A stretch of 64,000 nucleotides of DNA, taken from Aurantiochytrium sp. KH105. Its lineage: Eukaryota; Sar; Bigyra; Thraustochytrida; Thraustochytriidae. Location of the stretch: NCBI GenBank assembly GCA_003116975.1, contig BGKB01000132.1, forward strand, positions 124,001 to 188,000, written 5' to 3'. A program made the position numbers and the translations under genes. The notes beneath the pieces were generated by a model. It was not told where the DNA came from and ran no database searches. It saw only the letters and a program-made list of their open reading frames with translations. Positions within the stretch are counted from its first letter, which is position 1. Each line of letters starts with the position of its first letter. Shown here piece after piece: positions 27,101-48,252 of this stretch.

Positions 27101-30100
27101 TGGGCGTCCCTCCACTCATTGGCTCTGCATTAACGCTGATGTTATCGGCCCGAGTGTCGTTCTGGAAGCAAGAGAAGTCGATTTTGGACTGATCGGCGTT
27201 GGCAAGTCTTCAGAGATAACCTTTGTTATTCGCAACACGTCCACAAGCTCCAGTGCTCAGGTGAGTCTGCAAGAAGTCACCCAAGATAGCACAGACGCCA
27301 AGGAAGATACGGCGCGCATAACAATCACCAACGGGTCCACCTTTTCGCTCGCTCCGCAGGAAGCGCGGACCGTTAGCGTTATCTGCGAGGCGAGTTATAC
27401 GCCAGAGCGCATGCGCAAATGTTGGAGCGTCCGCGTACAACACAGCTCGACCCTTTTCATTAACCTTCGAGCAGAGATTCAGTCTCCCAAGGTGTTTCTT
27501 CAGGTGAGTGAGGACAATCACCAATGCAAGCTCGAATTTGGGACGACGTATGTTACTGTGCCTGTGTCGCGCACAGTTCGCTTGGTTAATCTGTCCAATT
27601 TGGCCGCTCCTTTCCGCTGGGTAGAACCCTCTTGTGACGACGGCACAAGCGCGGATGAAAAGGCTGCAGATGAAAGAGCCACATCTCGAGCATACGATGT
27701 ACGTTTCTCTTGTCGCGAAGGAACACTCAAGCCAAAGGAGTCTCGTGATATAGTGGTCACTTTCGAAGGCATCAAACCAGGACGCGTTGTAAGCTTGTTT
27801 GCCTGCGAAGTTGAAGGCATGCCTGTGCCTCTGGGATTTTCGCTGCACTCTCTTGTGCGCGGACTCGTCGTTGCTTATAGCTTGGTAGGTCCAGAGGTGT
27901 CTGCTGTGGACATGGCTCCTGGTCGCCCACCGACTTTAGAAGGCGCTCTTGGCGGCACCGCTACATCGAAAGGAAGCAGTGCTAGTGGTAGTGGCGCTGC
28001 TGCCACTGCTTCCGGCACCAGTGGCAGCAGCGCGAGCAATACGGGTGTCCCTGCTCTGGATTTCGGCAGTGATCTTGAGCTCTGCAAGCGAAAGCGCCTG
28101 CGCCTCTGCATTGCTAATCATTCGGCAATCACTACAAAGTACGAGGTTCTCACCAAGGCCTTTGCGGCAAAGACAGTCCCCCGCTCGCTTACAACACCCG
28201 ATGACGAGAATAATTCTCCAACTTCGCCTGGAAAATCTTCAAAATCGATCTCCCATGCCGGACAAACTGTGGCAAAGCTTGGCAGTGCGCACGAGGAGTG
28301 GAGCGTTTATGCCAGCAAAAGTGGGCGCAAGTATATCGAAGCTAAGGTACAAGCGTTTGAGGATCGCGAGGTCCTCTCTGCGGGGCGGGGCGTGGCCTTT
28401 CTTGCGCTACCAAAGACTGGGATGCTGCGCCCCTGGCAGGCGGTAATCATTGACGTCTACTGCTTCAACAACATGCCTGGTCGATACAGAAGCGAATTGC
28501 ATTGTCTTGTGGACGGCCTCAATCCCAGCGTGGCGCCAATCAAAGCGTCTGTCCAGGGTTCACCACTCTGTCTGGCTTCAAACACAGTTGGCCTTGTCAA
28601 GCGCCAGGGCGAATCAAGACTTCATTTTGGTCATCCGCTTGTGGGTACCGAACCTGTTTACAAAGTCATCAAGGTTTCCAACAATGGACCAGTGGCTGCC
28701 AAGGTGTCGTGGCGCGTCGTGGCCAAGCGGGGTCCAAAAGCAGATCTCTTGGAGACATCCATAGCTTTTGATGAGCATAAAATGGCAGAAGACATCGACG
28801 CACGCGTTCATGTAAAGCTCCGTCCGCACGCAGATCTCAGTAAAGCCCCGCCTTTTGTGGTGGAACCGCACACATTGCAAATAAGGCCGTATGCAAGCGG
28901 AAGTTTCCGGGTCACCTTTTTCCCTGATTCAGCCGAGGAGGCAGAGGACGCAGCAATTATGATCGCCGACGCCGACTGGGTCGATGAAGCCCATCTCAAG
29001 TCCGTGGACGATGACGGAGCGGCAGTTTCGATTCTCACGCTCGACAACCTTGCCACAGAATTGCTTGCAAGCTCAATAGGTACCGTACAAGGTGCAGAAC
29101 ATTGCAATGGAGAAAGGACAGCCTCTCGAGACTCGCGCGCATCTCGAAATATGAGTCCCCCAGCAGGTGCTGCAACACGGGCACCTTTGCGAGACTTTGA
29201 ACGGATCCACCTCGGGGCACATTCGGCGAAACCTTGCCTTGAGCTGGACCGCGCGAAGCGCGGGCCTCAAGGGCGCGCATTTCTAGGTTTTGTGGCATGG
29301 TCTACGAGAGCACGAGATCACGGATCCTTTTTCAAAACGCTGACATTTACAAATTCTACAGCTACGCACACATGCTGCGTTGTACGCACGGAGCCACCCT
29401 TCGTACTTGACGAGCTACGCACAACGAGCGCTTCCACGGCGGCGCTGCCCGGTCGCGAACTCGCTCAGCTCCGCGAAGTGGTGCCTCCGGAGGTTCTTGC
29501 ACAGGGTCAGGAGGCTGGTCTTCCGCCTGGCGCTACGCTGGCGCTGACACTGCGCTTCCAACCTGCGGAGCTCGTCAACAAATTGGCGCATGATCCCAAC
29601 AACGTGCTCAGAACGACGTATCCGGGAGCACTCGATATATATTTTCACAATGGAGAGCACCAGGGCATCGATCTCGAAGGCACTGTTGTATCTCCTGCGG
29701 TGCTTTTAGCACCTGCAGTCTTTGATTTTGGGCATGTGCACGTAGAGACAACAACACGCACGGTACTGTATATGACTAACCCGACTGTGGTCCCTGCGAG
29801 CTGGCGCGTATCCCACGTGCCGAAGAAAGCTCGTGCTGGAATCAGTAGCCCGAACAACCCCGAGACTATTGATGACCCTTCGTGCTGGTCGTTTGACATC
29901 GAAAGCGGCGTCCTCGCCGGCCCGACGCTGCCACTGTCTTCGGCGCAGGGGTGCATGCCAAAAGGCTTTGATTCCAAGGGAAAGCGAGTACCCCTGGCTA
30001 TCAGCCTCTGCTTCAGTCCTTCTCGGCAGGGTTTCCACGAGACCAAATTCAGATTTGCTGTTGATGCAGGCTTGGATTTTGACATTGTTGTGCGCGGAAC

Positions 30101-30161
30101 AGGCTCATACGAGGAGTTTCACGACACGTCGGTGCGGCCGCTCCCAGCGCCCAGCTTCTAG
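24165..30161 (+). CDS. DLEC1: DLEC1/CFAP81-like ASH (MSP)-repeat axonemal protein
   Basis: The 1,998-residue product has an acidic, disordered N-terminal fifth, then a charged helical part ending in MKKQIAFLKNPRF (about residue 410), and from about 505 a long series of immunoglobulin-like ASH/MSP modules recognisable by repeats such as LDFGSI, VDFGLIGVG, FDFGHV and LEPGAEQNFTLRFSP. The first module, with FFTDYEVNE, LRFLPPTSKYFSI and VVAPGMSCHLRIAF in that order, and the C-terminal VRGTGSYEEF are characteristic of DLEC1, known in Chlamydomonas as FAP81, an axoneme-associated protein. Animal DLEC1 is about 1,755 residues; this one is longer, partly because of a Gly/Ser/Ala-rich insert around residues 1265-1290. 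The start codon precedes the acidic region without an upstream in-frame alternative nearby. Its presence implies motile cilia. Confidence 0.88.
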   Translation: MDGLQEKAQENDDGADVLPVVEGEEGGRDLANEEKDFQEGAEAPETSPKAAPAPVNAATGLVGALDHVLKKTFKDFYDVEEELPMHSPEQGMGKSQEDIDESPDEDDNVHEAESELSDNVDNEENNTTGESLDQRSLQPEGEDFSDAGDAATSVEDQQPDESANVDRQSTILLAEQNCCVKDVLGFDGGAPAEEGLQVEIGVIEGDLRDELDQAKQLELFLEAERGRAAAADQEVADEVYSKGLLVGAEFPLGPSNYAIDAQKLREFGEMSAHLINVNRLLDANEENELYKRGQVTRGEDKACEMRPSTPNYLLPKERSKAKALMAAKAKYKARGTDDPRAREQANGNQESFENVNEDERSELSPEEAERFQRQEEAEKRRRELLSKAPQMTSETMQANMELLARMKKQIAFLKNPRFTLTTRATRDWRASLLNKDLSEPPTFAADEVKQLEESWDVGFLDESSVLQTNKASTANADACGLAHIADIKAEGSKLKENLHGSPELSFSFNVDPGFAFFTDYEVNEPQECLLKIVNVACVSRGLRFLPPTSKYFSIADAEFPSTASVVAPGMSCHLRIAFCADSLADYRDFVTVCTETERFRIALVARRTPPRLSLSRDLNAGSCFLGTRLSRTFPFSNQGGPARFRLVSEGEWAAKGMHANADEDTGNDLQLQGGVFTVLPKQFDLVTGQETALHVRFTPQTVGSMSATFLIVCDNCQVQLVTVRAASCQVKIEISRVGDRQLDISRKALLPPPRALDFGSITSGGTTHNSISYLNPTPIALNFHWTIRDVRARASEDFAIEPKAGTLEPGAEQNFTLRFSPVGTRRAACIHRALAQLVIDNIPPCAVDGASSRQLKRSSTKRGASASDDGLRSVPCSRLTLTGGSKPASVSFAPSAQIKLRRPLLADQQGEVSTTIHNTSDCVVSISWSNLDVGDHGRTTFTPIPSHVQLAPNEKTKVRFAFVPRSAGVLCHSLCCNLNGRPSTHWLCINADVIGPSVVLEAREVDFGLIGVGKSSEITFVIRNTSTSSSAQVSLQEVTQDSTDAKEDTARITITNGSTFSLAPQEARTVSVICEASYTPERMRKCWSVRVQHSSTLFINLRAEIQSPKVFLQVSEDNHQCKLEFGTTYVTVPVSRTVRLVNLSNLAAPFRWVEPSCDDGTSADEKAADERATSRAYDVRFSCREGTLKPKESRDIVVTFEGIKPGRVVSLFACEVEGMPVPLGFSLHSLVRGLVVAYSLVGPEVSAVDMAPGRPPTLEGALGGTATSKGSSASGSGAAATASGTSGSSASNTGVPALDFGSDLELCKRKRLRLCIANHSAITTKYEVLTKAFAAKTVPRSLTTPDDENNSPTSPGKSSKSISHAGQTVAKLGSAHEEWSVYASKSGRKYIEAKVQAFEDREVLSAGRGVAFLALPKTGMLRPWQAVIIDVYCFNNMPGRYRSELHCLVDGLNPSVAPIKASVQGSPLCLASNTVGLVKRQGESRLHFGHPLVGTEPVYKVIKVSNNGPVAAKVSWRVVAKRGPKADLLETSIAFDEHKMAEDIDARVHVKLRPHADLSKAPPFVVEPHTLQIRPYASGSFRVTFFPDSAEEAEDAAIMIADADWVDEAHLKSVDDDGAAVSILTLDNLATELLASSIGTVQGAEHCNGERTASRDSRASRNMSPPAGAATRAPLRDFERIHLGAHSAKPCLELDRAKRGPQGRAFLGFVAWSTRARDHGSFFKTLTFTNSTATHTCCVVRTEPPFVLDELRTTSASTAALPGRELAQLREVVPPEVLAQGQEAGLPPGATLALTLRFQPAELVNKLAHDPNNVLRTTYPGALDIYFHNGEHQGIDLEGTVVSPAVLLAPAVFDFGHVHVETTTRTVLYMTNPTVVPASWRVSHVPKKARAGISSPNNPETIDDPSCWSFDIESGVLAGPTLPLSSAQGCMPKGFDSKGKRVPLAISLCFSPSRQGFHETKFRFAVDAGLDFDIVVRGTGSYEEFHDTSVRPLPAPSF

Positions 30162-30665: not shown

Positions 30666-33371
30666 TCAGTCCGCCTTGGCGAGCCAAGATGGGAGAGAAA
30701 AGTCAGCCTTGTAATCCTTCGGCACCTCTTGTAGAGGGCGCCAATGAATGCCTGACTCGTCTATGAGACGGAGCAAGGCCGTATTATGCGGCCTGTAGAA
30801 TGCGCGCATTGCGTGGAGAAAGTCGCTGGGTGGATCAGACTTATGCGATGGATTATTCGCCTTTGAATACTCACCAAGAACGTAGAAGCCTTGTTTGTTC
30901 TTATGTGGCCGGAAGTAATGATGCTGTCTGGGCAACCGAAGTCCCAGAAAGGACTCAATTGCAAAAACGACGCCTTGTGGAAAGTTTCGAAAGTGTTCCG
31001 AGAAGACGAGCATGATTTGCTCGTCCGGGAAAGCAGCCCTCCACTTTTGAAGCCAGTGAGCATACATGGAATGAGCCAGGCCGCGACGCACAAAATAGTC
31101 GACTGAGGCATCACCAATTTGATGAGAGATTGATTCAGGGTCGAATTCCCGATGGAGTACATCAAATCGAGAGCGAAGGTCAACATATGTGCAATTGTCC
31201 AGCGCTTGATACATGCCACTGCACATTTGGAAATAAGAGGACACGAAACGCAAGACGGGATCGCGAACCATAAACACAAGTTTTGCCGATGGAAGCATCC
31301 GCACTATGTCCATCGGGTGGCTGAGATCCATGTAAGCTGGCGACTTTTCAAACGTCATTGACCTGCGGGCATAGGCAGTGTAGAAAAGATTGCAAAGCGA
31401 CAGGTATTGTTTCCACCACGATGATAGGTAAATGGACTCCTTGCGAAGCTCGCTCCAGGCGAACGCTCGCTTCTGCCCTGCTTCCAATGCGATGGTGAGA
31501 TTTTCCAGACCTGCGTGCGTATCGGCTTGCATCATCGCTCGACGCGCGCGAGCGCATGAGGGCCGGCGCCACCCACGACCACGGCCGAGGCAATCAAAGA
31601 AATGAATCTCGACACCTCCGTCGAGGCGCCGCGCGTACATGATCTGGTTGAGCCAGACTCCGAGTTCATCAGTTCCTGCCTTTTGTGCCCCAATAATGAG
31701 GAAAGATGGAAGACAGCGCGCAACTGAAAAGGTTAACTTGGTGCGCTGCTCAAGCGAGAGGCGCTTGAGATTAACCTGCTCCTCACAGTACCCTGCGTCA
31801 ATTTGCGTTTCGCTCAGGAGTGCCTTTGGCAAGTTTGCAAGGGCCGATCTTGACAAAAGTGGTGTTTCATACCCAAATGCTTGCAGAATAGAGGTGTCAA
31901 GAAGTAACTCCAAATCCTTTGCGAGATGCGTGGTGAGGCGCTCCACCGCAAATTCGTTAAAGCGAGAGCACGGAGATATTTTCACGAGCTCACTCGCTGC
32001 GTCATTTTGGACTCTGCTACCGCTACTACGCTTGCGCTTACGACTCGAGGTTGGTTGGCTGGGTACCGAGACTGTCGCCGCTTGTTTGAAATGGTGGTCT
32101 ACGGAAGAGTCTGGATGCGCTTCCGAGGCTGCACGAAAAGCAAGGTGCTCGAGAATACTCTTGCATGCGTCGCGGCTCGGCACGCGCATCAGAGGGAGTG
32201 TCGCACTCATGCTACCTCTGCTAGATGTGGACTGTACCAAGTGCGTGTGGTGCGCGCGCAAAAGTGCGCCTGAAACCTTTGACCATATAATCGCGTTTCG
32301 GAACAGTGGAAGATCTGTGATCTGGCAGTGCGGCGTTTCGAAAGTGTTTTTTAGCGCAGCAGCATTTGTGTGAATCTCTCCAGCAAAAAGCGCCTCGCGG
32401 AATCGGCGCTGATTCATACTAGCAAAGTCGCCGGTGAAATTGCGATCTTGAGGTCGAAGCCGGAGCATGCAAATCGTGTCGAGCACGTCTTCGTCTACAA
32501 GACTTGGGCCGAGAATGTCCACAAGGCGATCGTTGTCGCGAAAGGAGGCAGTAAGGCCGTCTTCCACGACTATAACTGGGCGGATGTGCGCCTCTGTTCG
32601 AGGCGATTTGACGGGCGATCTCTGTGATTCTGTGTGCACGTTTTCCTGATATCGGCTGCGCGGAGGAGGGGAAGGAGGGAGCGGAGAAGGAGGGGCAGAA
32701 GAAGAATGCACAGCTTCATCCACAAAGCGCCAGAGAAAGACCAAGTGAGGAACAACGGCCACCAGGGGCCCGTTCTTTTTGCTTAAGGTCACGAGCTCGG
32801 CCAGCAGGGCGCGAATGGCATCTTGAGCAGCAAGCCGTATTTCGGGCTTGAGTTTGTGCGCAACTTCTACTTCTGCGCCAAGTGACACGTCGCCAACGTA
32901 CTCGACGACTGCGCGTGCTGCAAGGAGGGTCTTCTTTGTCGTCTCTAAATGCTCTTCGTACGCAAGAGGTGCCGCCCATTTTACATGGTCTGCAAAGGTT
33001 TCTGCCACGGCGCGGCAAGCAGCATCGCCCCAGCCCATGACGAGCACGACAGAAGGACCGACGACACCGTCGGCGCTGCTCGGAGCGAAGGGACCACCCG
33101 CACCAAGCAGTGTTGTGTCGCTACTAGCTTCTTGAAAGGGCACCGTAAACGTCTCTTCCCAGCGCAGGGCCTCGTTGAACAGATCATCGCCTGCCTCAAA
33201 CCATCTGGAGTCGACGAGTTTCAGGTTGAGAACCGCGACAACTATTCCCAGCGCAAGAACGCAGGCCACCGCACGGTGGGCTGTCTCCATTGCCCGCATA
33301 CTGGGTCGGCCCCAGTCTTGCGCGACGCGCGCAGTCTCGCTCGAGGCAAAACAGATTAGAGTCTGTTTCAA
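30666..33371 (-). CDS. Large type II membrane sulfotransferase
   Basis: The 901-residue product has a short basic N-terminus and a hydrophobic anchor (ACVLALGIVVAVLNLKLV, about residues 34-51), which fits a Golgi type II protein. The C-terminal third is a PAPS-dependent sulfotransferase. The 5'-phosphosulfate loop FLIIGAQKAGTDEL is at about residue 555, and the 3'-phosphate-binding motif KLVFMVRDPVLRFVSSYFQ at about residue 695. The EKSPAYMD segment between them is typical of heparan-sulfate and related carbohydrate sulfotransferases. Residues about 90-540 form a long extra region that I cannot assign. It includes VVLVMGWGDAACRAVAETF, which might be a degenerate P-loop, and a Lys/Arg/Ser-rich stretch near 445. 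The start could instead be Met25 or Met28, just before the anchor. Two GT8-like glycosyltransferases follow upstream on the same strand, so a joint role in a sulfated glycan is plausible. Confidence 0.8.
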   Translation of the reverse strand: MKQTLICFASSETARVAQDWGRPSMRAMETAHRAVACVLALGIVVAVLNLKLVDSRWFEAGDDLFNEALRWEETFTVPFQEASSDTTLLGAGGPFAPSSADGVVGPSVVLVMGWGDAACRAVAETFADHVKWAAPLAYEEHLETTKKTLLAARAVVEYVGDVSLGAEVEVAHKLKPEIRLAAQDAIRALLAELVTLSKKNGPLVAVVPHLVFLWRFVDEAVHSSSAPPSPLPPSPPPRSRYQENVHTESQRSPVKSPRTEAHIRPVIVVEDGLTASFRDNDRLVDILGPSLVDEDVLDTICMLRLRPQDRNFTGDFASMNQRRFREALFAGEIHTNAAALKNTFETPHCQITDLPLFRNAIIWSKVSGALLRAHHTHLVQSTSSRGSMSATLPLMRVPSRDACKSILEHLAFRAASEAHPDSSVDHHFKQAATVSVPSQPTSSRKRKRSSGSRVQNDAASELVKISPCSRFNEFAVERLTTHLAKDLELLLDTSILQAFGYETPLLSRSALANLPKALLSETQIDAGYCEEQVNLKRLSLEQRTKLTFSVARCLPSFLIIGAQKAGTDELGVWLNQIMYARRLDGGVEIHFFDCLGRGRGWRRPSCARARRAMMQADTHAGLENLTIALEAGQKRAFAWSELRKESIYLSSWWKQYLSLCNLFYTAYARRSMTFEKSPAYMDLSHPMDIVRMLPSAKLVFMVRDPVLRFVSSYFQMCSGMYQALDNCTYVDLRSRFDVLHREFDPESISHQIGDASVDYFVRRGLAHSMYAHWLQKWRAAFPDEQIMLVFSEHFRNFPQGVVFAIESFLGLRLPRQHHYFRPHKNKQGFYVLGEYSKANNPSHKSDPPSDFLHAMRAFYRPHNTALLRLIDESGIHWRPLQEVPKDYKADFSLPSWLAKAD

Positions 33372-33709
33372 TGACCTTGGGTCTACTCAAAGATAAAAAA
33401 GTTCAAGGCCCCAGAGGTTGGATGTCACGGCGCCGACCCAGTGATCGGGGACCGATGGATTCAGCTGGTCCTTCTATGACAAAACACCATGGGAAAAAGT
33501 AACGGGCTAGTACTAGTGTACTTGAGAAGGAACCAACGTTTCCATTGCGCAAGCCATCAATTCTAATGTTCTTTTGAAGTTTCCATTACCTTTAGCCTTT
33601 CAATTTCCAGTACCGTTTCTGTTCCCATTTCCTTTTCCAATTTCTTATCCTCAAGTCCTTTCCTTCCTAATGCTGGCCTTGGTCGGCCAGCGCCGGCCAT
33701 ACTCTTTGA
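33372..33709. other. Pyrimidine-rich intergenic gap
   Basis: From about 33535 to 33665 the plus strand is made of repeated short words of the TTTCC/TTCCATT type, a low-complexity pyrimidine tract. It is followed by a GC-rich palindrome-like segment with GGCCTTGGTCGGCC near 33675. I see no gene. The gap carries the promoter of the sulfotransferase and the 3' end of the next minus-strand gene. Confidence 0.4.
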
Positions 33710-35518
33710 TTAAGGCTTTGTGATGGCCGGGTCCTGATACGTGTCAGCCTTAATCTTCACCTTTTCCATCATGGCATGCAGAAAATCGCGCTCAGAGGCA
33801 GTGATGCCAAGCTCAAGTCTGTCGACCTGACCCAGTACGTAATGAATGATCCTGGCCGCTTGGAACGGGATCTTTCGGTTCGGGTCAAACCCCATGACAT
33901 TGTACTTTGGGTCGACAACGCCATAACGACGTCCAGTCAGAAAGTTATTGAGATAGTCCTGCTCGCACAACCACGTGGACTGCGTATAAGTTTTGCGACC
34001 CTCGATGAGATAATCATAAAATGCAGTGTCGGGTCTTGCCAGAAGCAAGCCACCATTCATATAGCGCCTGCCCGGCATGTAGCGAGGCTCTTCCACACCG
34101 CAGACCTTGACAGTGTCGACGCATGCATTCCAAAGCTGCGATATGTCCCCAACGACGATAGTGTCGAGATCCGTGTAAACGATGGTATCCCAGTCCGTAA
34201 GGTTCCAAAACTGCAGCTTGGTGAACTGATATCTGTAGCGTTTATCACGCCCATCTTTACAAAAAAGTGGTTTGACTTCAATCGTATGGCCGCCTCGGTC
34301 CTCGAGCCACTTGCGAAACTCGGGGAAGGCATTGTCCGTGTAAATGATAGCCTGGTTCTCCCATGGAATGTTTCCATAAAGGAATTTGCTCACGTGATGC
34401 TGTTTGAACATGTCCGCAGAGGTGGAATGTGTGTAACCATCTTTGGGCGGTGGTGTCAGCATCGTTGCATAGAGTACACGCTTCGGCACGAGGTGAGAAC
34501 GCTGCGTTTCGAAAGAGTCCAAAAGGCGGTCGACTTTCTCAAGTAGTGCTTGCATTTCCATGCGAGTCATAGAAGCTGCGTGGGAGGCGTCGTACTGAAT
34601 CACGAAGGCATCTTCCAGCCGGTGCACTGTGTCTTTCGCGGACCAAATAACATTGAAGCGAGGATCAATGCTTGCTCGATTTGCATAGGGGAAATGATTA
34701 TTGAGGATGCTCTTTTCGCAGCCCATAGACCATTTCTTCCTTGATGACTTTGCTTCTTCCATGAGCGCGCTGCACTGCGCTTCGGAAGGATGAGCCACAA
34801 AAACCCCAGTATCGACTCGATAGTACGGAAGGTCCGATGCAGAAGCGGCGCCGCAGAAGCCAATCCCACCGTCGCTGCACATTGTCACAAGCTCGCGCAC
34901 ATCATGCGTTACCAACGTGTTGGCTGCCATAAAAACCACACTCTCGAAACCCGTCATGCACCAAGCTTGCAACTTTGTCAATTTCTTCTGTTTGGGAGCG
35001 CGAACACTCCAGCTGCTGCAAGAGAGGCCCTTCGTCCGGTGAATTGAAACACCGAGGTCCTTTGCCCAAGCCACGAGGGCTTCTGGCGCCTCTGGTGTGA
35101 CAAAAACTCCCATATTCTCCCAGGCAATCGCACCGTATGCATGTTTCGAGACCATGTGGCGCTTGAAAGCTAGAGCACCCTCTTCCGAGGTTGATTCTTC
35201 ATCGAGAAGAGTAAGCCATATTACGGAGCGTGCAGGCGCTGGGTCATTCTGCAAAATGGTAGGAGAGAAGCTTGAGTTCACGGTCATGAACGTTTCGCTT
35301 CTTACAATCTTTAGCTCCGAGTCCTGAAAAATTTGGGCGCCCTGGAGCATGTTGAGGCCTGTGATAGCCAACACGACGAGAGCGGCGCAGGCAAAGGCAG
35401 GCACCAAGGGTCGAGAGAACACGCTGCTCGGCAAGGAGCGTCTGCGCGGGCTTGATACCGGCGAAGCGCTTGGCAGATTCTTTGGCTCAACCGCCGAAGC
35501 TCGTGGGCTCATGACCAT
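33710..35518 (-). CDS. Double-domain GT8-like glycosyltransferase, copy A
   Basis: The 602-residue product has an N-terminal anchor (about residues 38-58) typical of Golgi type II enzymes, followed by two homologous GT8-like domains. The repeat is visible as FKRHMVSKHAYGAIAWENMG in the first half and FKQHHVSKFLYGNIPWENQA in the second. Only the second domain (about 345-595) keeps the metal and nucleotide-sugar motif, DTIVYTDLDTIVVGDI at about residue 445, plus the downstream MNGGLLLARPD and CEQDYLNN motifs. The equivalent site in the first domain reads VVFMAANTLV (about 197-206), with both Asp positions lost, so the first domain is probably non-catalytic. GT8 enzymes are retaining glycosyltransferases of the glycogenin and galactosyl/glucuronyltransferase type. 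The sugar cannot be deduced. A close paralogue lies immediately upstream on the same strand. Confidence 0.82.
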   Translation of the reverse strand: MVMSPRASAVEPKNLPSASPVSSPRRRSLPSSVFSRPLVPAFACAALVVLAITGLNMLQGAQIFQDSELKIVRSETFMTVNSSFSPTILQNDPAPARSVIWLTLLDEESTSEEGALAFKRHMVSKHAYGAIAWENMGVFVTPEAPEALVAWAKDLGVSIHRTKGLSCSSWSVRAPKQKKLTKLQAWCMTGFESVVFMAANTLVTHDVRELVTMCSDGGIGFCGAASASDLPYYRVDTGVFVAHPSEAQCSALMEEAKSSRKKWSMGCEKSILNNHFPYANRASIDPRFNVIWSAKDTVHRLEDAFVIQYDASHAASMTRMEMQALLEKVDRLLDSFETQRSHLVPKRVLYATMLTPPPKDGYTHSTSADMFKQHHVSKFLYGNIPWENQAIIYTDNAFPEFRKWLEDRGGHTIEVKPLFCKDGRDKRYRYQFTKLQFWNLTDWDTIVYTDLDTIVVGDISQLWNACVDTVKVCGVEEPRYMPGRRYMNGGLLLARPDTAFYDYLIEGRKTYTQSTWLCEQDYLNNFLTGRRYGVVDPKYNVMGFDPNRKIPFQAARIIHYVLGQVDRLELGITASERDFLHAMMEKVKIKADTYQDPAITKP

Positions 35519-36107
35519 CTTTCAAGTTGCGTGTACACACGCCAGCGCAACCTCGTGAAGCAACGTGCGCGTGCAAGCAAGCAAGAGCTCCCGCGCTACC
35601 TGTCTCGCCTCTCAGAGTTTTCCTGTGACGAGGGCTTTTAGAAGAAGGACAACCTTGGTCTAACATGCAGGTCAAGGTGAACGTTGTTTGCTCGGCTTGA
35701 TGCTCGGGTATAAAACGTTTTTTTCTCTCTCCATCTCCATTCAAAGTAGGCTGGAAAGCACGTTTCAGTTTGTCGCCTCTCCAATGCTGATCTGACCTAT
35801 CTCAAGGTCGAAGAGCTGTCAGGTGCGCCTTTCCTAAAGATTTGCGTTGAAACATAACAAGCATGAGCTTGTAAACCAACTGTGTGGTCGAACTGCTGGC
35901 GACAAATGCTGAGGTGTCTGCAGTCTGAGACGGTTAGGGTCGCTATAAAAACGTAAAGAAAGTAAAAGGCCGAGTACTTCGAAGGAACTTCTCCATAAGC
36001 GTGCCCGTGCCCTTGTCATGACATCATGACACGAGGTCACGCGATACTGGTGCAGTATCAGGCGAATCGGAGCAAGTCGAGGAAAATAAGCTGCTTTTCG
36101 CTATTTT
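35519..36107. other. Intergenic gap between GT8-like paralogues
   Basis: The gap separates two minus-strand paralogues. TATAAAA-like words occur at about 35708 and 35943 in plus orientation, but no plus-strand gene follows, so I do not call them promoters. No additional gene was seen. Confidence 0.35.
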
Positions 36108-37829
36108 CTACGATGCAGGACGTACTGGGTCCGGAAAGGACTTGCCGATTTTGTCAACCATGGTAATAAATTCGTGAAAATAGTCACGCTCGTCTGGTGT
36201 GATGCCGCCCTGAAGGTGGTCCACTTGATACATCACGTAATGAATGATCTTTGCTTGCTGAAATCGGACTTGTCGCGGTTTGTCGAAACTCATGATGTTG
36301 TACTTTGAGTCAACGACTCCAATGCGACGAGTTGTAAGCTGGTTGTTGAGATAATCCTGTTCGCAGAGGAAGGTGGACTTGCTGTATGTCTTGCGACTTT
36401 CAATGAGATACTTGTAGAAGGTAGTATCGGGACGAGCGATAAGCATTCCGCCATTGAGGTAGTGTTTCTTGGGTAGGTAGACAGTCTCCTCAACTCCGCA
36501 CAAGTGTACGCCAGGGATGCATGAGCTCCATAAAGTTGAAATGTCTCCCATGATTAGAGTGTCCAGATCTGTGTAGACAATGACGTCCCAGTCGACGAGG
36601 CTCCAAATCTGCAGTTTTGTGAACTGGTACTTATATCGCGCGTCGCGCCCATTCTCACAAAAAAGAGGAGAGACCTCGATTGTATGACCGCCTCGATCCT
36701 CGAGCCATTTGCGAAACTCAGGAAAGGCATTCTCGGTATAAACGATCGCTTGGTTTTCCCACGGTATCTTGCCAATAGCAAACTTGCTGATGTGGTGCTG
36801 TTTAAAGATTTCAATAGTGGTGGAGTGGGTGGGTCGATCTGGTGGAGAGGGCGTGAGCATCGTGATGTAAAGAACTCGTTTGGGAACTTCGTGTTTTCGC
36901 TGCGACTCAAAGCTATCAACATCACGATCAATGCTCTCTAGCATTGCTCTCACATCTGAGCGTTCCATCGATTCTGCATGAGTGGGATCATACTGAACCA
37001 CAATCGAGTCGTCCACTCGATGTACGGTGTACTCCTCGAAGACGATGTTATTGTACCGAGGATCAATGCTTTTTCTATCCACATGCGGAAAGTAGCTGCT
37101 GAGAATTTCTTTTTCGCAACCTGCTGCAGCAGGTGTAGAGTTTCCAGCCTCCGTGAGCAGTGCGCGACAGTGTGTTGCGGAGGGCAGGGCGACAAAGACA
37201 CTCGGATCAATCGTATATGCTGGCTGATCTGTCCCTGCGCTTGCTCCGCAAATTGCAGCAGGCGGAGAGCTCCTACACATGTTTGGGAGTACGCGCACTT
37301 CGCCTAGCACTACAGTGTTAACGTCCATGAATACCACACTCTCGAACTCGGTCATGCACCAGGATCGAACTTTGGTCAACTTGTAGCGCTGCAACGAAAG
37401 ATCGGGTGTTTTTGCGTTGCATTCAAGCACTGGCATCTCATGAATGGTGACTCCCAGACCCTTTGCCCAAGTCAGAAGATCATCTGGAGCCCCAGGCGTG
37501 GCTAGAATTCCCATAGTTTCCCAGGCAACTTTCCCATGAAGGTATTTAGAAATCATGTGGCGTTTGAACATCCTCGCGCCAATTGTACTTGCCGCAGTCT
37601 CATCGAGAAGGGTGATCCAGTGCGTAGAGTAAAAGAATGTGCTGCCTCTAAAAGGAGGAGGAATTAAAGGGGACCCAACATAGTTGGCGGTGAGATATTC
37701 CATGGAGACATTGTCATGAGAATCTCCACCAAGAACTGTTAAATTGATAAGGGTCAGCAGCAAGGCAGCTAAACAAAGGGTAACAAAGAGAAAGGGCCGA
37801 CGAGGCTGCATCGTGCATGCAGAGCTCAT
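36108..37829 (-). CDS. Double-domain GT8-like glycosyltransferase, copy B
   Basis: The 573-residue product is a tandem paralogue of the gene at 33710-35518, with the same plan: N-terminal anchor (about residues 12-32), a first GT8-like half with FKRHMISKYLHGKVAWETMG, and a second half with FKQHHISKFAIGKIPWENQA. The second half contains DVIVYTDLDTLIMGDI (about 413-428), LNGGMLIARPD and LCEQDYLNN, and should be catalytic. The first half has VVFMDVNTVVLGE at the motif position. It retains one Asp but not the DxD pair, and so is intermediate between a normal site and the fully lost site of copy A. Shared architecture and adjacency show that fusion of two GT8 units came before the tandem duplication. 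The predicted place of action is the Golgi lumen. Confidence 0.82.
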   Translation of the reverse strand: MSSACTMQPRRPFLFVTLCLAALLLTLINLTVLGGDSHDNVSMEYLTANYVGSPLIPPPFRGSTFFYSTHWITLLDETAASTIGARMFKRHMISKYLHGKVAWETMGILATPGAPDDLLTWAKGLGVTIHEMPVLECNAKTPDLSLQRYKLTKVRSWCMTEFESVVFMDVNTVVLGEVRVLPNMCRSSPPAAICGASAGTDQPAYTIDPSVFVALPSATHCRALLTEAGNSTPAAAGCEKEILSSYFPHVDRKSIDPRYNNIVFEEYTVHRVDDSIVVQYDPTHAESMERSDVRAMLESIDRDVDSFESQRKHEVPKRVLYITMLTPSPPDRPTHSTTIEIFKQHHISKFAIGKIPWENQAIVYTENAFPEFRKWLEDRGGHTIEVSPLFCENGRDARYKYQFTKLQIWSLVDWDVIVYTDLDTLIMGDISTLWSSCIPGVHLCGVEETVYLPKKHYLNGGMLIARPDTTFYKYLIESRKTYSKSTFLCEQDYLNNQLTTRRIGVVDSKYNIMSFDKPRQVRFQQAKIIHYVMYQVDHLQGGITPDERDYFHEFITMVDKIGKSFPDPVRPAS

Positions 37830-38689
37830 AGCGCAGGAAATGCGTGAAGTATAAGCTATCTTTTCTCCGTTGCTTTTCGGACCTCCCTGACTTTAATTTA
37901 TTATTCTTCGCAATGCTCCCTTCACCTTCCACGCTTTCGCACCGCCCACCTGCAGGTTAGAGAGGCTCTGGCAACTGGGGCTGAGACCACCCCCGCTCTT
38001 CGCAGCGGTACGGCCGCACACGATGGCGACGGGCTCCCAGCGGCGGCGTTGCCCCCGTAGCGTTTTGCGCTTGAACACGTGCACGTAAGCTTCTTCTGCC
38101 AAGGCTGCACAACTCGTGACCCTGTCGCACTGCCGAGGGGTCATGCATAGGTGAGATTCAACTGCCAGGCTGTCAACAGCAGTATAGGCTTATAGGGGGC
38201 CTAGTAGGTCCAGCAGCTGTAGGCCTGGTGCTGGCTAGGCATACAGGACCTAGCAGCAGTCACTGAGAGTCACGGCAAGCGCAGGCATGGGTTGGCATGC
38301 TGAAGGTTTCCCTTGGCGCGTCGTTTTCTTCTCGCAGATTTATCATAACAAACGCAGACCCTAAGGCGCGGAAGACTTGCACGTAGGACGCAGGACTGCC
38401 AGAGTGGTGCTGCACTGCGCACGCTTGCTGGTGCTAGCGTGTAACCGCTTAAAACGCGCTGGTCGCGAGGCGGCTTGCCGGTGTGCAGCACACGCTCTGA
38501 TCACACATGAAGAAAAGATGAGTGCTCTGCCTCGAACGGCGCAAAATGACGACACCATGAGTTCTTCTGCTTTGTCTTCTTTAGCTCTTTCCTCTTCGTC
38601 ACGATGATATATGTGACCGCGATGCTGTCACGGGGGCGTTAAAGCGCCATATAATTTGTTTGTCAGAGTATCATGGAGCGACATGAGCG
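37830..38689. other. Gene-poor intergenic region
   Basis: I see no gene here. The segment at 38180-38265 is rich in GGCCTAG/TAGGCC words, near-matches of the palindrome found elsewhere. It probably includes the promoter of the GT8-like copy B gene, which starts at 37829 on the minus strand. Confidence 0.35.
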
Positions 38690-40137: not shown

Positions 40138-40695
40138 CTACTCCACCGTCGCCGCTGCGGCCGGATATGTGATGACCAGGATAGGAGACCTCCCTCGCAG
40201 CACCCTCGCGCCGCTTCTATTGCGCCCATGAACCCATAAGCTGGGACAAATGAAATCACGCGCTTTGAGTTTTTTGCCTCTACTGCCAGCATCACCTCGC
40301 ACGCATTCTGCAACTCGGATCTCCCACTGTATCCATCAAATTAAAATTTTAATTAACACGGAGTTCGCGAGTAAAGTACGTGATCGTCTCCTCATAATCG
40401 AAGGCCTCCTGGGCATCAGACCCATCCGGCTTTGCCTCGATCGGCGCGCGGCCGCGGCAGCGTGCGCGCGACCCCGGGGGAGGACGCCGGCCGGGAGCGC
40501 GCGGGCGTGCGGGGTGTCCCTGCAAAATTGCTTCGGCCCGGCAAAGACCTAATCAGCAGCTAATCATCAGGAAGCATCTTAGGGAACAAGCAGGCAGAAC
40601 CGGGACCTGCGAGCCCCTGAGCGTCCGTGCGGGCCTTGCGGGGGCGTAGAAGGCGCGACAAGGCCGGTGGGCGAGCCGCATGAGCGGAGTAGAAN
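40138..40695. other. Intergenic segment with GC island and an ambiguous base
   Basis: The stretch 40430-40520 is extremely GC-rich with many CG dinucleotides, unlike its AT-richer neighbours. The only non-ACGT base of the window is an n at 40695, directly before the dispersed repeat begins. No gene was recognised. Confidence 0.45.
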
Positions 40696-41236
40696 GGCAT
40701 GGAAGCCAAATCTGCCAGCGAGATTCAACTTCTTACGGTCACGAACCCAAGCAAGACACCCAAGCAAGACCCCCAAGCAAATCATGCAGACTTTTCTTGA
40801 TCAACACGTTGAGCCCAAGCCAGCTAGCTTCCCTACAGAGACCCAGATCAAGGCAAAGATTGTCAACGTGAAGACCAAATTTCGCAAAATGCAAGCAAAA
40901 CCGACCAACAACGATATTTAACAGCAAGTTTGTCTTCTCCACGCGTTTCCTTGCCTCTGCCTGGCATCTAGCCCAGCTGCGCGGCAGTCTCCTCCGCAAA
41001 CACGGTCGCAAAGCCCGCGCAAAGTCGCCCTTTCGCGCAGTTCTGCGCTGGTCCATCGTCGATGATTAGACGCATGAGGTGAAAAAAGGGGGGTGACACA
41101 ACTTTACAACGAAGGCTTGCACGGCCGTGCCGCCGGGTGTTCTGGGCAGCCAGGCGGCGGCGGAGCGAGCCTGCGCGCCGGCGAGGCGATTGGCTGAAGT
41201 GCGGAATATCGCGAGTGCCAAATCTCCGTACACCAA
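40696..41236 (+). repeat. Dispersed ~540-bp repeat, copy 1
   Basis: This segment matches 60575-61103 along its whole length with many substitutions and small indels. The plus strand encodes a short tail QIMQTFLDQHVEPKPASFPT followed by ETQIKAKIVNVKTKFRKMQA up to a stop at 40921. The far end, read on the minus strand, encodes NRLAGAQARSAAAWLPRTPG and continues GGTAVQAFVVKLCH. Both short frames are recognisable in the second copy, so the repeat probably derives from real coding sequence or a mobile element with genes facing each other. I see no clear terminal inverted repeats or target-site duplication. Confidence 0.7.
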
Positions 41237-42038
41237 TATGGGAAATCGTCTCCTGGTCTTACGTGGAGACGGTCTAAAAATAAATAAATTAATAAATTGA
41301 AAGTCAATGAACTCTGCAGTTTCCCAAAGTTTGCAGCTTCGGGGGTGATTCCGGGCCATTCGTGACTGTCGTTCGAATTGCATACTTCAACTCGCTTCGA
41401 TTCGCCGATGGCGTTCGTTTTACCTAGTATACCATAACCAACACCGCATGGCGGCTAACATCCGGGCCTTTCGCATGTGTTGAGATTTGCACGCTTTGTT
41501 GAGGTGCTTCGTTTTGCGACGCCACCTCGGCCGCTTTAACAGAATCTGCTCTTGCCGCCAATCGCCACCCCTTCTACCGTCGCTCCGGATCCCTCCTCCG
41601 TCCCGCTTGTCACGCCTACCTGAGCCCAACACTTGCGTGCGCCGTGTCGAATTCGGCGACCGACCGTGGCGAGCTGCCGCGCAATAAGATTAGAAAGGTG
41701 AACTGACGGGCTCGCTGCCAGCGACGAAACAGACCTGGAAGCAGAACGTGAACACCGACGGCGAACTTCTTCAACTTGAACTTGAACTTGCCGCACAGAC
41801 TGCGAGTGGACCGAGTCGGGAGGAAATCTCTTGGCTTTCCAAAGGCGAGTCTACGCAGGCGGGCTGACTGACGCGGGCAGACTGACGCGGGTGGACGCGC
41901 GGCAGAAGCGCCTCGGCGCGGCACGCAACGCAGAGCAGAGCAGAGCTGAGCAGAGCGACGGAGGAGGAGCTCGGGCGAGCGTGGCCGCCCCAGGGAGGCG
42001 CAAGCGAAGAACTTCCCTCGCGCCAAGGCCGGCCGTCC
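41237..42038. promoter_or_regulatory. 5' flank of the RBR-RCR ligase gene
   Basis: I see no separate gene in this gap. Immediately upstream of the start codon at 42039, at about 41933-41960, lies a short AGAGC-type pentanucleotide repeat in a purine-rich, GC-rich leader. It probably belongs to the 5' untranslated region. Several overlapping open frames exist on both strands because of high GC content. Confidence 0.4.
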
Positions 42039-43862
42039 ATGGGCGCTGAGGCTAGCCGCAGCGGCGGCGCCGAGGCGGCGGCGCAGCAGGCCGCGCTGGC
42101 GGCGCAGGCGGCCGTGCAGGCCGTGCAGGCCGTGCAGGCAGCGGCAGGACTTGGAGCCATCGTGGCTCTGCGCCCTACTGCCGAGGGCCTGCTTGTCCGC
42201 GAGGCCGCGGGAGGCGAAGACTGGGTACTTGTCGCCCGAGGTGGCGTCGGCAGAGCTCCCGGTGCCGCTGCCCGCGAGCGCCAAACGGGCGCGCGTAATG
42301 TTAACGTCGCAGAGGCCGCAGCTCTGGCGGGCGAGCTCAGTGGCTCACAGTGCGTCGAAATGTCGGCGGAATTGATTCGACTCGCTCGCCAGGCGCCCCT
42401 GCGCGGCGAAGACATCCGCCGCACCATGGAAAACTTGAGCGAGGCCATGGCGCTACTCGCGCAACGTCGCAGCGAGGCCGAACATCGCGCTCTCGTGGAG
42501 CTCAAACGGGCCCAGCGTACCTGCTGCAAATGCGACGTGACCGCAGAGGATACTTATGCAGATCTCGTCGAGCTCTCCAATTGCGGCCACTGCATGTGCA
42601 CCGACTGTTTTCGCGGGCACGTGCTCGCAGCAGCACCGCGGCCTTGTTGCACCTTTCCCTTTTGCGAATGCGCCATCGCGGAGCTGGATGTGCGCGCAAC
42701 TCTGCGCCCCGAGGAACTCGAGGCTTACATATCAGCTGGGGTTCGCAACATCGCTGACCAAATTTGCCAGTGCCCGAAATGCCAGAAAGTAATTGCGTTG
42801 GATCGCGACAAGCATGACGCTCGCAACGCGGGTCGCGTGCGTTGCGTGTGTCAGGAGACGTTCTGCGCCGACTGCCGCGCCTCGCCGTTTCACGAAGGCA
42901 TGACGTGCGAGGAGATGCGAAGCACGCGCCCGTGTCGATTTTGCAAGACCCGCGTCATCTGCGCTTTGGCTGCAAGTCCGGGCGATATTGTCGCCTGTGC
43001 GTCACAGGCATGCCAGCAAGAGTCTCGCGCGGTCTGCGGTAAAGTTCGACAGGACTGTGGTCATCCTTGCGGCGGCCTCGCGGAAGAATCGTCTTGCCCC
43101 GCTGAGTGCTTTGCATGTTTGGGGTCAGAAAGGAGCTGCGGCATTTGCCTCTTTCCGCTTGAGGAGGGAGCTAGCATGGTGCTTTCGTGCGGCCACGCCA
43201 TGCATGTTAATTGCGTTCGGGAGCGTTTCGAAGCCGAAAAATCTGCCGAGCGCGCTTCGCTTACGTTTTCGCGCTGTCCCGTGTGCAAGTCTGACATGGC
43301 GCACCCCGAGGCTCTGGAAAGTGAATTTCTCGCCGTCAACGAGCTGCGCTCCAGCATTCAGGGCGTGCTCGATGAAGCAAGAGGCCGGGCTAGCCCGGCG
43401 GAAGCGCTTTTGGAGGATGACGCGTACACCTTGTTTTACTGCGAGCGGTGCCGTCGTCCTTATTTTGGCGGCATGCGGCAATGTGAGGAAGCTGGTGGAG
43501 CAGCACATCACGACGCAGAAGACCACCAACATCACTACTGCGCCTCGTGCACATGTGCGCTGCAGCAAGTGCCCGTCTGTTCAGAGCACGGGCCAGACAG
43601 CATGCAATTCAAGTGTTCGTTTTGCTGTACACCGGCAAGCTTCTTTTGCTGGGGCACAACGCATTTTTGTATTGACTGCCACGCCCGACAGATGGCAGGT
43701 GAAAGGCTCAATCGACTGCCGCTTTCTGAATTGCCACAGTGTGGCGGCGCACAGATTTGCCCCTTGGGTCTCAACCATCCGCCCAACGGTACCCCTCCGT
43801 CGCAGAGCGCGCCAATTGTTCTTGGCTGCTCCATGTGCCAAGCTCGTCGTGCTCTTATGTAA
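42039..43862 (+). CDS. RBR-like plus RING-Cys-relay (MYCBP2-type) E3 ubiquitin ligase
   Basis: The 607-residue product starts MGAEAS, a fit to the N-myristoylation pattern. An Ala/Gln-rich segment and a helical linker precede a canonical RBR-type RING1 (C162, C165, C182, H184, C187, C190, C204, C209) and a complete IBR/BRcat domain (C245, C248, C269, C271, C276, C279, H285, C290). No normal Rcat follows. Instead there is a Cys-rich stretch with CGHPCGG (340-346), a RING-H2 finger (C367, C370, C384, H386, H389, C392, C413, C416) and a tandem-cysteine domain (468-600) very like the C-terminus of MYCBP2/PHR proteins. MYCBP2 relays ubiquitin between two cysteines and esterifies Thr/Ser. The matching residues here are C482 (upstream relay) and C537 in FFCWGTTHFCIDCH (catalytic). 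MYCBP2 itself has over 4,600 residues, so this is a compact, rewired version. The substrate is unknown. Confidence 0.85.
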   Translation: MGAEASRSGGAEAAAQQAALAAQAAVQAVQAVQAAAGLGAIVALRPTAEGLLVREAAGGEDWVLVARGGVGRAPGAAARERQTGARNVNVAEAAALAGELSGSQCVEMSAELIRLARQAPLRGEDIRRTMENLSEAMALLAQRRSEAEHRALVELKRAQRTCCKCDVTAEDTYADLVELSNCGHCMCTDCFRGHVLAAAPRPCCTFPFCECAIAELDVRATLRPEELEAYISAGVRNIADQICQCPKCQKVIALDRDKHDARNAGRVRCVCQETFCADCRASPFHEGMTCEEMRSTRPCRFCKTRVICALAASPGDIVACASQACQQESRAVCGKVRQDCGHPCGGLAEESSCPAECFACLGSERSCGICLFPLEEGASMVLSCGHAMHVNCVRERFEAEKSAERASLTFSRCPVCKSDMAHPEALESEFLAVNELRSSIQGVLDEARGRASPAEALLEDDAYTLFYCERCRRPYFGGMRQCEEAGGAAHHDAEDHQHHYCASCTCALQQVPVCSEHGPDSMQFKCSFCCTPASFFCWGTTHFCIDCHARQMAGERLNRLPLSELPQCGGAQICPLGLNHPPNGTPPSQSAPIVLGCSMCQARRALM

Positions 43863-46794: not shown

Positions 46795-48252
46795 CTAGCA
46801 CATGAGCACATTTTTATGACGCCTCCAGCGCTTTGGGTTTTTCTTGCTCGCTCTCACATGCTCTTGAAACGCCCGCACACGCTCCTTGAAGATGGCAACA
46901 AGCTTGGGAAACTCAGGCCCAAGCTTACCAACAAAGGACTCAAATTTACTCTTTGCATGCTCGTACACACCGTTCATGTTTTTGGTGAGACGCTTGATCT
47001 TCTCCAGAGCCCAGGCGTGCTCGCCCACCAGATCGCGGGGAGAGATTTTGGCCTCTCCTTGATCCTTGCACTTTTCGTAGATCATCGTGTCGATAGACCA
47101 ACCGAATCGCAGCGCCAAGAGCACAAGAAACTCGTCAAGGTGCTCTGTGGTGGTGTAGAGCGCGTACGAGTCTGTCAGCTGTTGAATGGCAACGGAGGGC
47201 TCTTTCGAAGAAGGTCGCGTGATCGAGTAACACGACTCATCGCATTTCAATTCCGTACGCGACACCTTTTCTACCCGCTCGAGGAATTGACTCAGGGTGG
47301 CGTTGTGGCGCACCGCGTCGTCGTGACACACAAACTTCATCTCTCGCAGCAAAGGTGGCTTATCGCCGACTGCTTCCGAGTAGTCGCATGCCCTTAGCGG
47401 GTACTCCGTAAAGTACTTGCGATTGAACATCCAAGTCGACTTGCTCACAAAGTGGCTCACGGGCTCGCGAAAAAGAGTGACGAGAGCGGTCCCGGGAAAA
47501 ATTCTGTCGATGGCACCCGTGTTTTCGCTGTGCTGGAAAAAGATCTCCTTGTGGTGGTCGCGTTTGCACGACTTCAGTTTGTCGCACTCGTTCAAATTGT
47601 AATGTACAGAAGCGTTTTTAAGCGCCAAGGCAACGCTTGTGCCACCCACTTTGTGCAGTTTAAGAAGGTACAGACTCGGTGGTTTCTCAGTTTGCGTAAA
47701 CATGGAAAATTCCGGGTCGTTGACACCAAAGAGTGCCTTGAGGCTGGCCTCGCGGAGGCGACCCTCTTCTTCGTTCGAGAAGAGAGGAGGAGGCTCGAAA
47801 ATTGCATCGGTTCTCTGGCCCTCGTCCTCGAGAAGCTCATCGAAGTTACTCAAGAGGCCCTCTTCATCGATTTCCTCCTGCTCGAGCGACATGGCCTCCA
47901 ATTCGTCGTCTGTGACGAGAAAGTTAAAGGGATCATCCTTGAGTCGCAGCCTCAGTTGCTCTGCTCTACCGGGTCGAGGTCCGCCTTGCTCGACGTCGAC
48001 CTCTGCGTTGAATTCAATTTCGATGCTCCCGAGGCGCTCATTCGACACTGGTTCTCCGCTCAGGCTGTTGTACAGGATGCAGATACCAAGCATGATGGCG
48101 ACGAATATGTGCATACTCCATTTCATGCTCGCCATCGCGAGCAAGCTGCCATTTCCGTCGCGTGTTTGGCGCTGCCTGAACATGGGACTCTTGCCGCCCT
48201 CCATTCTGAGCACGCGAAGAGAAGGTAGGAAAAGGGTTTTGGATGCCGGCAA
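46795..48252 (-). CDS. Type II membrane carbohydrate sulfotransferase-like protein
   Basis: The 485-residue product carries a hydrophobic anchor (MHIFVAIMLGICILYNSL, about residues 47-64), an acidic stem region, and a sulfotransferase-family domain from about residue 188. The 5'-phosphosulfate-type loop reads LLKLHKVGGTSVALAL (about 190-205). It is followed by ALVTLFREPVSHFVSKSTWM (about 250-270) for 3'-phosphate binding. This combination, a K-x-GGTS loop and LFREPVxxFxS, is closer to the 2-O-sulfotransferase and galactose-3-O-sulfotransferase types than to the NDST type at 30666-33371. A Lys/Arg-rich tail closes the protein. Four Met codons precede the anchor, so the exact start is uncertain; Met43 or Met46 would put the anchor at the very N-terminus. 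It likely acts in the Golgi on a glycan. Confidence 0.75.
   Translation of the reverse strand: MPASKTLFLPSLRVLRMEGGKSPMFRQRQTRDGNGSLLAMASMKWSMHIFVAIMLGICILYNSLSGEPVSNERLGSIEIEFNAEVDVEQGGPRPGRAEQLRLRLKDDPFNFLVTDDELEAMSLEQEEIDEEGLLSNFDELLEDEGQRTDAIFEPPPLFSNEEEGRLREASLKALFGVNDPEFSMFTQTEKPPSLYLLKLHKVGGTSVALALKNASVHYNLNECDKLKSCKRDHHKEIFFQHSENTGAIDRIFPGTALVTLFREPVSHFVSKSTWMFNRKYFTEYPLRACDYSEAVGDKPPLLREMKFVCHDDAVRHNATLSQFLERVEKVSRTELKCDESCYSITRPSSKEPSVAIQQLTDSYALYTTTEHLDEFLVLLALRFGWSIDTMIYEKCKDQGEAKISPRDLVGEHAWALEKIKRLTKNMNGVYEHAKSKFESFVGKLGPEFPKLVAIFKERVRAFQEHVRASKKNPKRWRRHKNVLMC

Follow-up and report, generated by a model that had tools for sequence, protein, structure and literature searches.

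A 607-residue protein of the thraustochytrid Aurantiochytrium sp. KH105 is quite probably a compact RING-Cys-relay (RCR) ligase with two parts: a RING1-IBR front half of RBR origin that has no working Rcat, and a MYCBP2-type engine of a RING-H2 and a tandem-cysteine (TC) domain. The gene lies in the 64,000-nucleotide stretch of DNA analyzed here (hereafter, the window). Judging by alignments, a custom profile and the substitutions between two gene copies, we show that both halves have homologs in these ligase families, that they share one selected frame, and that the relay cysteine pair, the accompanying histidine and most zinc ligands are conserved. The founding papers on RCR ligases are reportedly Pao 2018 and Mabbitt 2020, and to our knowledge MYCBP2, a giant protein, is the only RCR ligase to have been studied.

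Results

Both Halves Belong to One Coding Unit

The gene is a continuous, single-exon frame of 607 codons on the forward strand (42039–43862; Table 1), encoding 607 aa, which is open from 41886 and has its first in-frame ATG at 42039. Searching the genome (G000; 76 Mb, 367 contigs, the window being part of contig C132), we found a second copy, L002, on contig C8, which matches at 97% over the whole protein and at 98% over residues 150–607. Within the frame, the DNA of the copies differs at 64 of 1,815 aligned bases, 42 of them at third positions, and the only gap, of 3 codons, falls in the N-terminal repeat region. The nonsynonymous/synonymous ratio per site between the two copies, taken from simple uncorrected counts, is 0.40 for residues 1–154, 0.087 for residues 155–300 and 0.095 for residues 364–607 (18 synonymous and 6 nonsynonymous changes); for the junction (residues 301–363) it is 0.10, from 4 changes only. 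The front half, the junction and the back half form a single coding unit that is under purifying selection in the two copies, which we read as allelic or homeologous forms of a single gene. A sequence-only reading of the window had proposed a single 607-residue fusion at this place, which the frame, its second copy and the selection across halves and junction bear out. That an error of gene model or assembly made two adjacent genes look like one is very improbable: a hint of it is the lone N at 40695, flanked by repeats and 1.3 kb upstream, where the assembly may have been joined; but this base lies outside the gene, the frame is unbroken, the ratio is low in both halves and the junction, and the copies sit on different contigs.

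Alignment of the two copies, at 95%, starts 12 bases ahead of the ATG and continues through the flank downstream of the gene. Upstream of 42027 in the window and of 1489 in L002 they share only short pieces of at most 47 bases, which fits interspersed repeats there, and the promoter regions therefore differ. The N terminus, MGAEASR, fits what we take to be the N-myristoylation pattern, which occurs in 1 of the 87 ATG-started frames of at least 100 aa in the window, and is a weak hint of putative membrane attachment.

Table 1. Features of the gene and its predicted protein, in window positions. MYCBP2 residue numbers are those we take to apply
Feature	Position	Strand	Basis
Complete ORF, RBR-like front end and RCR module, 607 aa	42039..43862	+	Second copy L002 with the same frame, one in-frame 3-codon gap
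N-terminal MGAEASR, candidate membrane anchor	42039..42059	+	Pattern fit, weak; kept in second copy
RBR-type RING1, residues 162–209, C-x2-C...CxH...C-x4-C, Lys164 at presumed E2-contact position	42522..42665	+	Ligand pattern, profile
IBR/BRcat-like domain, residues 245–290, all eight ligands	42771..42908	+	Ligand pattern, profile
STRPCRFCKTRV, residues 295–306, resembles first zinc pair of Rcat only; catalytic part absent	42921..42956	+	Rcat profile, borderline
Junction zinc knuckles C299–C360, including CGHPCGG	42933..43118	+	Cys pattern
RING-H2 of RCR module, residues 367–416, Ile369 at presumed E2-contact position	43137..43286	+	Pfam, phmmer
Tandem-cysteine domain, residues 468–600	43440..43838	+	MYCBP2 alignment
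Cys482, putative upstream relay cysteine, aligned with MYCBP2 C4520	43482..43484	+	Alignment
Cys537, putative downstream relay cysteine, aligned with MYCBP2 C4572	43647..43649	+	Alignment
His548, putative general base, aligned with MYCBP2 H4583	43680..43682	+	Alignment

The Back Half Is a MYCBP2-Type RCR Module

Using phmmer, we found that residues 364–601 match the MYCBP2 RCR chains 6t7f (E 7.2e-27) and 5o6c (E 1.2e-26), and that for residues 440–607 by themselves, which contain FFCWGTTHFCIDCH, the E value with MYCBP2 is 4.6e-22. The alignment has 78 of 218 positions identical (36%) and keeps 29 of the 33 Cys and His residues of the aligned MYCBP2 stretch. Residues 364–601 are a clear homolog of the RING-Cys-relay whose structure was solved in MYCBP2. 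The RING-H2 (ligands C367, C370, C384, H386, H389, C392, C413 and C416) is also a Pfam zf-RING_2 match (E 3.9e-7). As in MYCBP2 (PAM/Highwire/RPM-1; 5O6C, 6T7F), the RING is followed by a tandem-cysteine zinc domain with a relay Cys pair and a general-base His, here H548, which are the hallmarks of an RCR ligase. The two proteins differ in that the window protein has only 607 aa and an RBR-like front. Moreover, PF08005 of the PHR family is not among its matches at E up to 1.

MYCBP2 numbering was anchored at C4520, whose place in the MYCBP2 sequence we assume, as we do the numbers C4572, H4583 and E4534 and those of the Phe residues. Both cysteines of the relay proposed in the sequence-only reading are present, C482 lying opposite the mediator-loop Cys of MYCBP2 and C537 at the downstream position. 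The catalytic Glu of the Cys-His-Glu triad, in contrast, is not kept, His498 taking the place of the MYCBP2 Glu, and neither is the three-Phe pocket linked to Thr preference in MYCBP2, which here has Trp538, Phe543 and a third residue other than Phe. MYCBP2 is described as an RCR ligase in PMC9527308, PMC13061254, PMC12664034 and PMC6769291; its C4520S form is called catalytically inactive (PMC12664034), a Cys-His-Glu triad is described (PMC9527308), a His is given a catalytic role (PMC6769291, PMC9527308), and a cluster of three Phe is reported (PMC6769291). In the window protein, the relay chemistry looks kept and the acceptor pocket changed, to judge from the aligned residues. Given that His498 aligns with the Glu and that the Phe pocket is altered, Thr specificity cannot be assumed, and we infer only that the protein may esterify Thr or Ser.

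The missing triad Glu and partly lost Phe pocket would also suit a protein whose relay is inactive and which acts as a conventional RING-H2 ligase, its TC domain and RBR-like front being scaffolds. We regard this reading as unlikely: the His and the two Cys of the relay are retained, as are 29 of the 33 Cys and His residues, and the ratio of 0.095 (18 synonymous, 6 nonsynonymous) shows strong selection on the RCR half. An AlphaFold2 model made with the two near-identical sequences as only input had a mean pLDDT of 32.8 and a pTM of 0.22, and is uninformative owing to the absence of relatives for the alignment.

The Front Half Resembles the RING1-IBR of RBR Ligases

All ligands of the RING1 (C162, C165, C182, H184, C187, C190, C204 and C209) and of the IBR (C245, C248, C269, C271, C276, C279, H285 and C290) are present, in agreement with the complete sets claimed beforehand. 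Six-frame translation of the window gives 567 stop-to-stop frames of 60 aa or more, and this frame alone has the ligand pattern of RING1, spacer and IBR. None of 20,000 shuffles of residues 155–300 has the joint pattern, while the RING1 part alone occurs in 24 and the IBR part alone in 2. A narrower form of this pattern had failed to detect the IBR in either of the control RBRs from this genome, L009 (Ariadne-like) or L011, and was widened for that reason; in its widened form the joint pattern is found in L011 and is missed in L009, which has a degenerate RING1, so it is no universal test for RBRs. The ARIH1 stretch begins inside RING1, and its IBR part, the only one tested, fits the pattern.

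A profile was then compared by hhalign, built from ARIH1, parkin, L009 and L011, the last two serving as both controls and templates. Residues 170–306 match this RBR profile with a probability of 86.8, an E value of 4.3e-6 and a score of 43.5, which is reached by 0 of 150 full shuffles (mean 14.5, maximum 24.4) and by 0 of 150 shuffles with every Cys and His fixed (mean 15.5, maximum 24.3). Leaving out any one of the four templates gives probabilities of 63.7 to 94.9; true RBRs left out of the profile reach 99.2 to 100 as positive controls, and the RCR half and the N terminus, as negative controls, reach 0.6 and 0.0. RING1 alone (2.2, its best alignment falling off the RING1 columns) and the IBR alone (18.3) match weakly, and it is the two together that carry the RBR assignment.

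General searches of the front half were negative. Whereas the RING-H2 and the MYCBP2 homology come out of such searches, the RBR part emerges through the custom profile and ligand pattern: Pfam IBR has no match at E up to 1 in the whole protein or in fragment 42501–43130, and a genome-wide Pfam IBR search up to E 1 has none at this gene. In fragment 42696–42980, FYVE (E 0.13) and IBR_1 (E 8.3) both fall far under the cut-off. A phmmer search of the PDB with the front half, at E up to 10, yields RNF4 (E 2.9) and no RBR. In its own genome, where two loci, each in two copies, encode RBRs whose IBR passes the Pfam cut-off, the front half does not find these, and apart from its two copies has one 43-residue match at E 0.08. 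The NCBIfam search gave only a chance match to Rad50 (E 0.096). These negative results, with FYVE ranking ahead of IBR_1 in one fragment, are what would be expected of an array of zinc knuckles that is RBR-like in Cys spacing only, a reading that we hold to be quite improbable, because the profile match exceeds all 150 shuffles with Cys and His fixed and because RBRs have the same spacing from RING1 to IBR and likewise end their RING1 in C-x4-C. Profile and ligand pattern thus support the front as an RBR-type RING1-IBR, which shares with RBR ligases (ARIH1/Ariadne, parkin) the end of RING1, the spacer, the IBR ligand set and the profile match.

No Rcat Is Found, and an RCR Engine Stands in Its Place

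What sets the window protein apart from RBR ligases is that it has no recognizable Rcat with a catalytic Cys, carries Lys164 in its RING1, and has the RCR engine in the place of the catalytic domain. L009 and L011, which share the IBR pattern with it, keep an Rcat with GCNHMxC, and the window protein does not. As already stated in the sequence-only reading, no Rcat is recognizable: there is no CxHMxC motif in the protein, and a profile of the Rcat aligns with residues 295–306 only, at a borderline score of 20.7, where the best of 60 shuffles reaches 18.9. Elsewhere in the protein the scores are 12.0 to 16.8, and true Rcats left out of the profile score 77.5 to 122.7. No active site or catalytic Cys of an Rcat was found. 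We also considered residues 299–363 as a whole, degenerate Rcat, and rejected this since the profile match stops at residue 306.

The junction holds the CGHPCGG sequence, which had likewise been pointed out together with the RING-H2 and the TC domain, at residues 340–346, and fragment 42930–43140 has no Pfam match. A CGHPCGG knuckle may precede the RING in MYCBP2 too; the MYCBP2 chains 6t7f and 5o6c, of 261 and 263 residues, start shortly before the RING.

Searches for Relatives

At E up to 1, the genome has no RCR beyond the two copies, the one other match being of RING length (62 residues, E 0.44), and it has no PHR domain (PF08005) over the cut-off, the best match (E 0.049) lying on a different contig. 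In viral contigs, 2 stretches met the pattern of the RCR half, none confirmed by tblastn; 89 stretches were found with the RCR alignment including MYCBP2 and 42 with the front half, none confirmed. In the genome-contig collection, the same RCR alignment gave 127 stretches, none confirmed, and a degenerate DNA pattern for FFCxGTTHFC gave 0 matches; the phage collection had no match to the whole protein. The collections searched hold viruses and prokaryotes, so these absences say little about eukaryotes, in which relatives may well be present, unannotated or with automatic annotation only. Among the matches listed for the literature on RCR, RBR, protist and thraustochytrid ligases, titles and abstract openings describe no RBR-RCR hybrid.

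These data bear on a different history, in which the RBR-like front is an old part of RCR ligases, the RCR having arisen from an RBR whose Rcat was exchanged for a RING-H2 and TC domain, and MYCBP2 having lost or hidden the front. The possible residue of an Rcat-like first zinc pair at residues 295–306 would suit such a descent, as would the compact gene being the only RCR found in a genome with no PHR domain over the family cut-off, so that the RCR module need not derive from a PHR giant. However, the Rcat-like stretch is borderline, and with no relatives found outside this genome in the viral and prokaryotic collections the direction of change is unreadable, making this history possible but not the likely one.

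Other Features of the Window and Genome

Several further observations concern the surroundings of the gene. The N at 40695, possibly an assembly join, lies between two different high-copy repeats (40334–41302). The left repeat ends at 40694 and recurs in at least 39 other places at 98–100%; the right one extends from 40700 to about 41272–41302, by an AAAT tail, recurs in at least 39 other places at 86–100%, and resembles a non-LTR retroelement at its 3′ terminus. On the reverse strand, 9461–22900 holds a single frame of 4,480 codons with an ARID, HMG boxes, four bromodomain stretches and a WSD motif, which looks like a very large, intronless chromatin-remodeller-like protein. A forward frame of 2,017 codons (24108–30158) encodes an Ig-repeat cilium protein like HYDIN/CFAP65/DLEC1/CFAP74. 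A sulfotransferase adjoins two successive glycosyltransferase family 8 genes at 30669–37892 (reverse), and a further sulfotransferase match, under the cut-off, lies at 46795–48186 (reverse). Elsewhere in the genome, strong but piecemeal matches are seen to a model of the PfaA-type polyunsaturated fatty acid synthase; the best (E 1.4e-278) reaches 930 bits, below the family cut-off of 1,010, and holds ketoacyl synthase and acyltransferase domains. The model also matched 11 of 14 control genomes, none over the cut-off. Together with the cilium protein, these matches may point to a thraustochytrid-like stramenopile.

Discussion

The residue between the first two zinc Cys of a RING usually contacts the E2; this position, which we take to be Lys164 in RING1 and Ile369 in the RING-H2, suggests how labor is divided between the two RINGs. 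The RING-H2 carries Ile369 there, like MYCBP2, and the RING1 position is Ile in L011 and Thr in parkin. With Lys in RING1 and Ile in the RING-H2, we infer that the RING-H2 would be the E2 site and the RING1-IBR a regulatory or recognition part; the E2 is probably recruited by the RING-H2 rather than by RING1. The sequence-only reading, in which several E2- or zinc-binding modules precede a Cys relay, is right about the modules and doubtful in making RING1 a second E2 module because of Lys164; its broader interpretation, an RBR front and an RCR back without Rcat in a single unit, survives apart from that E2 role. Its statement that the RBR catalytic module was replaced by an RCR module presupposes a direction of evolution.

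In the mechanism that we propose for the compact RCR ligase, the RING-H2 would bind the charged E2, and ubiquitin would pass from the E2 to Cys482 on the mediator loop and on to Cys537, where His548 may activate a non-lysine acceptor, most likely a hydroxyl. In RBR ligases, the RING1-IBR region positions substrates or binds ubiquitin or a ubiquitin-like protein, and here, presumably no longer catalytic, it could position the substrate or bind ubiquitin or a ubiquitin-like protein and so regulate the engine. More speculatively, N-myristoylation might place the enzyme at a membrane.

The finding puts the rare two-Cys relay module of the giant animal protein MYCBP2 in a single-celled eukaryote, joined to a front like that of parkin and Ariadne. 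A natural RCR protein of 607 residues would be a tractable enzyme for work that the size of MYCBP2 makes hard, and would reveal what the relay cannot do without, the Cys pair and the His being kept and the Glu and Phe pocket not. It would make testable the kinship of cysteine-relay and RBR ligases and the age of non-lysine ubiquitylation in eukaryotes. Rather doubtful for now, but of wider reach, is the idea of a class of RBR-RCR hybrids outside animals, in which an allosteric RBR front, sensing ubiquitin or a ubiquitin-like protein, would gate a hydroxyl-modifying two-Cys relay; the window protein would then link RBR and RCR ligases, and the RCR ligases may have arisen from RBRs by exchange of the catalytic domain.
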